Assembly (NCBI GenBank): GCA_033819885.1
Contig: JAQYUZ010000005.1
Location: forward strand, 496,001 to 560,000
DNA: 64,000 nucleotides
Origin: Microbotryomycetes sp. JL201
Lineage: Eukaryota; Basidiomycota; Microbotryomycetes
Direction: 5' to 3'
The notes under the pieces are model-generated. The model was given only the letters and a program-made list of their open reading frames with translations, had not been told where the DNA came from and made no database searches. The translations under genes were made by a program, and so were the position numbers. Positions 12,062 through 61,701 of this stretch are shown here, piece by piece; the stretch's first letter is position 1; each line of letters begins with the position of its first letter.

Positions 12062-13695
12062 ATGGCAGCTGCACCGCAGGTCAGAATTCACTCATCTGCG
12101 CATGACGCACTCACTCGAGGCTGCTGACTCGTTCCACTTGTCGCATGCAGGTTCCGATCGAGTCGACGCTCCAAGGCGGATACTTTCACCCACTGCTGCG
12201 CTCGCTCCAAGCAGAGCGACATCTCACAAAGGATATGCTCATGTACCCAATCTTTATCACGGACGATCCAGATGCAGAGGCGAGTCCCTTTGAAGCTGCC
12301 CCGAGCTCGGCCCGCGCACGGGCCGGCCGGCATCGACCTTGCTCGTTTCGCAAGCTAAATAGGCCCCGCCGTGTCCGTCCTCTCCCGTTCAGGTCACAAT
12401 CAACTCGCTCCCCGGCCAAAAGCGCTGGGGCATCAACAAGCTGAAAGCCTTCCTCGCCCCGCTCGTCGCAAAGGGTCTCAAATCTGTCATCCTCTTTGGC
12501 GTACCCGTCGTGCGAAAGAAAGATGCGAGAGGATCACTTGCGGACGATCCTGAGACTCCAGTCATTTTAGCAACCAAATTGATCAGGCAAGAGTTTCCAG
12601 ACGTGGTCGTGGCGTGCGACGTTTGCTTGTGCGAATACACGGACCACGGACATTGCGGCGAGCTCAGAGAGGACGGCACGATCGAGAATGGAGCTTCAGT
12701 CAAAAGGCTCGCAGACGTGTCTGTCGCATACGCCAAAGCTGGAGCGCACATGGTCGCTCCGAGCGATATGATGGATGGTCAGGCGATCTTTTCGTTGTCT
12801 CGGTGTTTTTATACTTGCTCACACACAGTTTTTATTCACTCTAGGCCGCGTACGAGCCATCAAGCAGGCCTTGATTGATAACGGGTTCGGCAACCGGTGC
12901 AGCTTGATGGCTTACTCGGCAAAGTTTGCCAGCGCCATGTATGGCCCGTTCAGGTAGGTTTCGATTTGGCGGCCACTTTGCACAGAGTTGAGCAATGTTC
13001 ATGATGCGCACGATTAGGGAAGCCGCCGGATCGACACCTGCGTTTGGCAACCGAAAATGCTACCAACTGCCTCCGAATGCCAGGGGTCTTGCCAGGCGGG
13101 CGATTGTCAGTACCGTCACACACGCACAGCCGTTTCTGTGCGGCTCAGTCTTGTTCAAGTACGCTGACCAGAGGATGTCAATCACAGATTCGAGACGTCA
13201 ACGAAGGCGCAGACTTTATCATGATCAAACCAACCTTGCCGTACCTCGATATTCTGGCTGAAGCGAGACAACTAGCTCCCAACCATCCCTTGGCATGTTA
13301 TCAAGTAAGTCCATCTCCTTCGTAGAGAACCCGAAAAATACTGGATAGCTCACGACTCCGTTTACGCCATTGGTCTCGATTCACATTTTCCCTGTCAAAA
13401 AAAACATCCAAAACCAAAAAGGTTTCGGGCGAGTTTGCAATGATTCACGCTGGAGCGAAAGCCGACGTGTACGACCTCAAAACTGCCGCATTCGAAACGA
13501 TGGACTCGTTCCTTCGTGCAGGTGAGAGACCTCCTCCTTCCGTTCCTACTCGTTTTTATGGAACAGCACCCGAGGGCCGTCGACTTGAAGCTGACGATTC
13601 GTCAAATGGTGACTCTCAATATAGGAGCAACCTTGATCTTGACATACTTTACACCAGACTTTTTGGAATGGCTCGACGAACCGAGAGCTCTGTAG
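12062..13695 (+). CDS. HEM2: Delta-aminolevulinate dehydratase (porphobilinogen synthase)
   Basis: Exons 12062-12079, 12151-12279, 12393-12777, 12845-12953, 13018-13105, 13188-13304, 13422-13521 and 13625-13695 give 338 aa. The enzyme condenses two 5-aminolevulinates to porphobilinogen in cytosolic haem synthesis. The zinc-binding segment [15 protein letters not shown] is complete. The two active-site lysines lie in [15 protein letters not shown] and [12 protein letters not shown], the latter forming the Schiff base. [16 protein letters not shown] and the C-terminal [13 protein letters not shown] are also typical. The first exon codes only six residues. The second intron begins GCGAGT rather than GT: exon 2 ends in GAG and the family motif [13 protein letters not shown] resumes in phase 0 at 12393. 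Length is normal for the family. Confidence 0.96.
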
Positions 13696-13890
13696 GATCA
13701 TTCAAAAGAAGAAAAGAGAAGACAAAAAAATTGTCTTGTACTGCATTGAAAGAAACAAAAGTGACGAATCGTTCGGATTGAAAAATCTAATTCAAAAAGT
13801 ATTTGCGAATTGAAAGTCGTGTATCAGAAATCTATGCGGCAAGATCAGGCGGTTAGGAATTGAAGAATTTGACCAATGTCGTATCCGTGT

Positions 13891-60560: not shown

Positions 60561-60679
60561 TATTCGATTTCTTCTATCATTGCGCACAACCTCTGCTGCT
60601 ATTCTGTACGATGCTCTGAGGATATATACTGTTGATGATTTGAAATGTATGCGGATCTCGGCTTTAGATTCCGCTCATC

Positions 60680-61701
60680 ATGTCGAAACTCGCGACTCGG
60701 CCCACGACACAGGGCGCGGGCACTAACGGTCGACCGGTCGTCTTTTTCGACGTGTCAATTGGCAACACGCCGGCTGGACGGATCCGTATGGAGTTGTTCT
60801 CGGACGTCGTCCCGAGGCAAGTCGCTGAATTCGCCAACAGTGGTGGTCACTAGCGCGTGACCGCATTTTCCTAGTGTATTGAGGTACCATGCGCGCGTCG
60901 AGCAAACGCTAAGCGGCTTGCTTTGCTTGCAGAACGGCCGAGAATTTCCGGCAGCTGTGTACAGGCGAATTCAGACCCAACGGCCAGCCTGTCGGATACA
61001 AGAACGCCATTTTCCATCGAGTCATTGCAAACTTCATGTGTCAGGTTCGTTGGCAGCGTCGTCGTCCTCCCTCCGTTGCGTCCTGGCGCGCGCTGAATGT
61101 TCCATTGTCACGTATACAGGGTGGAGATTTCTTGAACGGCGATGGCACCGGATCTTTGAGCATCTATGGTCCACAATTTGATGATGAGAACTTTGAGGTC
61201 AAGCATGAGAATGCTGGGCTGCTGAGCATGGCGAGTGGCGCGATTTCCCCGTCCTCCTCCTTGAGGCGCTTGAAAACAGCTGACACGGTTCACACCACGT
61301 TCGCATTTTCAGGCCAACTCTGGGCCAAATACGAACGGCTGTCAGGTGCGCCGTGACGTCGAGTTGTTGGGAAGTGGTGCCGGCTGACTGTTTTCGCATC
61401 AGTTCTTCATTACAACGGCGCCCGCACCGTTCTTGGATGGCAAACACACCGTCTTTGGGAAAGTGCTTGGGCAGGACAGCATGCTCGTTGTGCGCAAGAT
61501 TGAGAATGTTGCCACAGGTCAGTGCCCGGCTTAGCTGTATTTCCAAACCCCTTGCTGATATCGTGCATATGTCTCGAAGGTCCAAACAATCGTCCAAAGA
61601 TGACTGTGTCGATCACAGGTGTGTCACTGTCGCAAGTATTGCAAGTGCTTGTTCAATACGCTGACGACTGATGTTACCCGACAGAATGTGGCGAAATGTA
61701 A
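60680..61701 (+). CDS. Cyclophilin H-type peptidyl-prolyl cis-trans isomerase
   Basis: Exons 60680-60816, 60933-61044, 61120-61230, 61313-61345, 61403-61517, 61580-61618 and 61685-61701 give 187 aa. Cyclophilin H binds the U4/U6 snRNP proteins and helps spliceosome assembly. After ~20 N-terminal residues, [20 protein letters not shown] begins the single cyclophilin barrel. Active-site features are present: [43 protein letters not shown] and [11 protein letters not shown]. The ending [18 protein letters not shown] matches the PPIH subgroup. The usual catalytic Arg is in FHRV. Two introns carry GC donors (GCAAGT at 60817, GCGAGT at 61231). The second splits SM from [11 protein letters not shown], so the junction is unambiguous. 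Confidence 0.94.

Follow-up and report, generated by a model that had tools for sequence, protein, structure and literature searches.

GC-AG introns have long been known and raised shares of them have been published elsewhere; the genome considered here, that of Microbotryomycetes sp. JL201, adds another case. Among fungi, the available text of the relevant reports gives a mean GC-AG share of 1.009% (PMC7072748), 1.85% in Ganoderma lingzhi (PMC11590231) and 0.02–2.97% in human fungal pathogens (PMC6176087), and describes Meyerozyma guilliermondii as an outlier with about 6.67% of major non-canonical sites (PMC7072748). Such fungal introns resemble those reported here in their GC donor, AG acceptor and near-consensus flanks, and differ in frequency, which is about 6.5% here. 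For algae, shares of 39.6% in Aureococcus, 22.2% in Micromonas pusilla and 7.7% in Chlorella are stated in the accessible part of PMC3033335. These algae have in common with the present genome a raised GC-AG share and a G+C content above one half, but Aureococcus and M. pusilla are far GC-richer (69.5% and 65.9%) than the present genome (55%). A G+C content of 55% alone does not predict such a GC-AG rate. In cyst nematodes, a likewise lineage-restricted rise, mainly of GC-AG, reaches 3.46% in Globodera rostochiensis, where introns were manually curated with RNA-seq (PMC4901422), and 4.29% of non-canonical sites in Heterodera, as cited in the available portion of PMC7593179. These are animals with a lower, RNA-supported rate, whereas the introns of the present genome are predicted from sequence. 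An intron-rich fungus with a comparable GC-AG rate was not found in the partial texts covered by our literature search.

The genome comprises 17,152,241 bases in 92 contigs, and its compact genes, dense in introns, suggest a basidiomycete-like fungus. The window, a 64-kb stretch of contig 45 (positions 496001–560000; 55% G+C), was analysed together with 28 other 10-kb stretches of readable sequence from this genome, 344 kb in all. Introns were predicted on both strands by a gene finder that combines codon-model, donor, branch-site, acceptor and length terms, makes no use of homology and imposes an AG acceptor. Training covered the window and 29 stretches of 10 kb and admitted no donor but GT, GC being allowed afterwards; one stretch, L014 (contig C13, 10001–20000), consists of N over its full length and was left out of later counts. 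With GT donors only, the finder converged at 781 introns of median length 62, of which 86% have a GCTGAC-like branch site by the finder's own threshold; in their donors, +3 is G in 46%, +4 is A in 65%, +5 is G in 91% and +6 is T in 58%. A further tally of GT donors at +3 gives 48% G and 24% each of A and C. C at +3 is also common among the hexamers of 751 GT donors, which include 118 GTGAGT, 105 GTCAGT and 32 GTAAGT.

Ten GC-AG introns had been proposed in the window from inspection of conserved motifs, and the letters GCGAGT or GCAAGT are present at all ten places (Table 1). Nine were called by the GT-trained finder with GC at 3%, the MTR3 intron at 53478 being missed, and all ten were called with a GC-specific donor matrix, under which the 64 kb hold 178 predicted introns; only six GC introns of the window are kept when all fifteen non-GT dinucleotides compete at 1% each. 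Homology backs eight of the ten, the two others (32610 and 32759) sitting in a low-complexity N-terminal stretch of CHD1 in which homology is uninformative. The spliced HEM2 protein (12280) aligns over the junction to yeast ALAD (1ylv, 226.3 bits), and its Pfam ALAD score is 191.3 bits when GC-spliced versus 145.3 for the GT-only model. For the TPS2-like gene (14625), Trehalose_PPase scores 233.7 versus 168.8 bits, with a secondary Hydrolase_3 match in the opposite direction (24.8 GC-spliced, 28.2 GT-only). At 34516 in CHD1, an alignment to yeast Chd1 (3mwy, 269.5 bits) spans the junction and the SNF2 score is 188.2 versus 125 bits. An alignment to human MTR3 (6h25) crosses both MTR3 junctions (52787 and 53478); MY-LVVGC and LLDPTR are retained on either side of the second, and the RNase_PH gain for the first is small (105.7 versus 99.4 bits). 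The DnaJ score of the J-protein (59072) is 87.9 versus 47.9 bits. Cyclophilin H aligns to human PPIH (1mzw, 258.9 bits) across both of its GC junctions (60817 and 61231), LLSM-ANSGP spanning the second, and its Pro_isomerase score of 167.3 bits falls to 117.5 when both GC sites are removed together. One extra call in the window, at 29149 (GCCTGA, margin 3.4 nats), was rejected for its ill-fitting donor and a model that fuses two seemingly unrelated proteins.

Table 1. Predicted GC-AG introns of the window (positions are those of the window)
Gene	Position	Strand	Donor	Basis
HEM2	12280..12392	+	GCGAGT	finder and homology
TPS2-like trehalose-phosphatase gene	14560..14625	-	GCAAGT	finder margin 6.9 nats
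CHD1, N-terminal part	32610..32679	+	GCAAGT	finder only, margin 0.9 nats
CHD1, N-terminal part	32759..32835	+	GCGAGT	finder only, margin 0.9 nats
CHD1, ATPase domain	34516..34573	+	GCGAGT	finder and homology
MTR3	52787..52868	+	GCGAGT	finder, margin only 0.5 nats
MTR3	53478..53543	+	GCAAGT	called with GC-specific matrix only
J-protein	59009..59072	-	GCGAGT	finder margin 9.3 nats
Cyclophilin H	60817..60932	+	GCAAGT	finder and homology
Cyclophilin H	61231..61312	+	GCGAGT	finder margin 4.0 nats

Across the 344 kb, 56 of 806 introns predicted with a free GC matrix have GC donors, and 52 of these read GCRAG (6.5%, 95% CI 4.9–8.4); corrected for missed sites, the GC share may be about 8%. Because GCRAG donors make up 42/628 introns outside the window (6.7%) and 10/178 inside it (5.6%), the rate is not specific to the window. 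The original prediction that GC donors are unusually frequent is thereby borne out, 52/806 being far from a genome-wide rate near one percent and from the published fungal mean of 1.009% (available text of PMC7072748). These would be GC-AG introns of the major spliceosome, at a share several times that fungal mean. When a single extra dinucleotide was admitted at 1%, GC took 41 of 798 introns with a gain of 161.6 nats, whereas the fourteen others, admitted singly at the same prior, took 4–15 introns each for -0.1 to 20.8 nats, which argues that the GC excess is not chance. With all fifteen non-GT dinucleotides competing at 1% each, GC was assigned 39 of 811 introns and any other at most five; in RAGT context with a 3% prior, GC took 36 introns and the remaining fourteen 0–2 each. 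The gain of the GC class with its free donor matrix (56/806) was 270.9 nats. An AG class with a free matrix also made 56 calls (254.3 nats) and was rejected as a second donor class, since nearly all of its calls are GC donors in a shifted register. CT and TC classes with free matrices, with up to 40 calls each (72.7 and 70.8 nats), were taken as noise. Forbidding each called GC intron in turn cost more than 3 nats for 32 of 50 and less for 18, among which are six of the ten window sites proposed earlier.

It is hardly credible that the GC introns are prediction artefacts and that nearby GT sites are truly used, as in Heterorhabditis bacteriophora, where, according to the available text of PMC5906903, a share of 8.87% fell to 0.79% on re-annotation. 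Some finder margins here are indeed below 1 nat, but the AG class, trained from scratch, arrived at the matrix GGCR/AGT, in which the GC sites reappear with the cut moved three bases downstream, and the lengths of 42 of the 56 predicted GC introns are not divisible by three. The homology tests also argue against an artefact of the Heterorhabditis type. For 20 genes picked for recognisable domains, GC-spliced predictions were compared with GT-only predictions, and Pfam scores were clearly better with GC splicing in 18; in a kinase, the GT-only model loses the DFG motif. The two remaining genes are those for TyrRS, with level scores (61.6 GC-spliced, 61.5 GT-only), and PEPCK, for which the GT-only model scores better (145.5 versus 106.6); in both, the junction precedes the domain, and the PEPCK segments are unequal in length. 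Gene callers that forbid GC would break many genes of this genome, as in the GT-only models of CHD1, the kinase and cyclophilin H.

The frequency of GC depends strongly on the bases that follow. The GC share is 23/55 before AAGT, 21/141 before GAGT, 1/106 before CAGT and 0/53 before GCGT; in RAG context there are 30 GC and 311 GT donors, versus 2 GC and 440 GT elsewhere (Fisher p = 1.2e-9). As a control, a script changed the second base of all 751 GT introns to C, and the finder recovered 72% of them at a margin above 1 (AAGT 66%, GAGT 75%, CAGT 80%). Because CAGT is recovered better than AAGT, detection bias or missed CAGT sites fail to explain the pattern. The exon ends in AG in 45% of GC introns versus 15% of RAG-matched GT introns, and the flanks agree with the consensus at a mean of 4.96 out of 7 positions in GC introns versus 3.66 in GT introns (p = 1e-14). 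Flanks close to consensus are favoured by the donor matrix of the finder, and the GC introns compared on the exon side come from the GC-trained matrix; the exon-side and flank trend has the same direction in the earlier generic-matrix set of 32 GC introns. The branch site CTGAC is found in 34/56 GC introns versus 125/312 RAG-matched GT introns (p = 0.005), and CTRAY, the genome's own type, in 77% of GC versus 62% of GT introns. G at +3, which had been singled out as a special feature of these GC donors, was rejected as such, since GT donors here likewise prefer it (48%); GC donors instead shift towards A at this position (AAGT 23 and GAGT 21, versus 32 and 120 for GT). Of U1 and U6, only U1 pairs with the exon bases of a donor, which suggests that compensation takes place in the U1 helix.

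We hypothesize that these are ordinary major-spliceosome introns with C as the second base. Canonical U1 would pair with the donor, C at +2 being a single mismatch that would be accepted where AG at the exon end and R-A-G-T at +3 to +6 are well paired. T and C at +2 would be nearly interchangeable in contexts of this kind and mutation would raise C towards its neutral share, and with a mismatched C at +3, C at +2 would be held at about 1%; the 6–7% seen overall would then reflect a balance of mutation and selection under a lenient donor threshold. This account of the GC rate is probably correct. In AAGT context, the C share at +2 comes near the value expected under neutrality from the C:T ratio within introns (0.289:0.251). 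For mammals, neutral fixation of GC donors in strong context was proposed by Churbanov and others (available text of PMC2490688), and the present genome appears to be an extreme instance of it.

It is quite unlikely that GC donors are recognised by a variant U1 snRNA whose base facing +2 is altered. A U1 variant has been suggested by Frey and Pucker for GA donors in two animals (available text of PMC7072748), and divergent copies could escape a search which here returned a single candidate. This candidate, which scores 31.1 bits where Rfam sets its cut-off at 69.5, is canonical through the donor-pairing part of its 5' end, ATACTTACCTTG, and the altered U1 raised in the original prediction is not indicated. 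Moreover, a variant U1 should free C at +2 from its context, yet GC is nearly absent before CAGT and GCCAGT occurs at chance genome-wide (62 versus 53 expected). The other suggestion made earlier, a general tolerance of the +2 mismatch, does not fit, since how far C is tolerated depends strongly on context. A lineage-specific change in U1C, LUC7, Prp8 or U6 that lowers discrimination at +2 and +3 is a rather doubtful alternative, although the presence of C at +3 of GT donors, at a frequency of about 24%, suggests a leniency of the core helix beyond +2. Such a change is compatible with a lenient threshold and would be its cause; U1C and LUC7 matches are present in the genome, near position 92483 of contig C19 and near 5179 of contig C78, respectively. 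The U6 snRNA match (contig C63, 52479–52661) is 183 bases long, versus 105 positions in the model, and the U6 gene may contain an internal intron. Introns are found in the U6 gene of some basidiomycete yeasts; a supporting paper was not found in our literature search.

Genome-wide, both strands were searched for G-N-R-A-G-T (and also GCCAGT) followed by 20–40 bases, GCTGAC, 8–25 bases and CAG. The counts, with chance expectations in brackets, are 507 (55) for GTGAGT, 193 (96) for GCGAGT, 152 (20) for GTAAGT, 288 (89) for GCAAGT, 50 (40) for GAGAGT, 10 (17) for GGGAGT and 62 (53) for GCCAGT. Chance-corrected, GCAAGT thus exceeds GTAAGT among GCTGAC-anchored introns (about 199 versus about 132); set against a backward control, the excesses are 235 and 119, respectively. 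Because GTAAGT introns use CTGAC less (25% versus 61%), this count overstates GC relative to all introns, and in the finder sample GT is ahead in AAGT context (32 versus 23 GC). A looser pattern gave a modest excess only (539 versus 399 in the backward control).

Regulated or alternative splicing, a role suggested for GC donors in mammals and nematodes (available text of PMC2490688), appears very unlikely to be what selection maintains them for here, as GC introns lie at conserved places in housekeeping genes, where skipping breaks the domain, and the GC share tracks the pairing context. We tentatively consider that donor strength might be kept about one mismatch short of perfect pairing, C at +2 being one of several equal ways to achieve this, although we think this less likely than not to hold. 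With independent columns, GTAAGT is observed 32 times and expected 66.9 times, and single-mismatch forms are in excess, GTCAGT for instance being observed 105 times and expected 65.0 times; before AAGT, where pairing is perfect, C at +2 approaches T in frequency (23 versus 32). The GTAAGT depletion is weaker in the most secure introns (6 observed, 9.3 expected, n = 82), so it may come partly from detection. If donors were indeed held near one mismatch, selection would act against over-strong donors, instead of weak ones being simply tolerated. The second intron base is usually regarded as nearly fixed, and here its C share depends on the following bases; if RNA agrees, the genome would offer a natural measure of how far U1 pairing offsets a mismatch at +2, from about 1% to more than 40% C.

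Several genes contain at least two predicted GC-AG introns, namely in stretches L012 (5644 and 5770), L006 (4148 and 5872) and L018 (680, 1288 and 2124); genes of this kind include those for a 5-FTHF cyclo-ligase and an ergothioneine-type methyltransferase with an FGE-sulfatase domain. The window also contains a match to the C/D box snoRNA snR61 (RF00476) on the minus strand at 51902–52003, with a score of 47.1 bits, barely over the cut-off.
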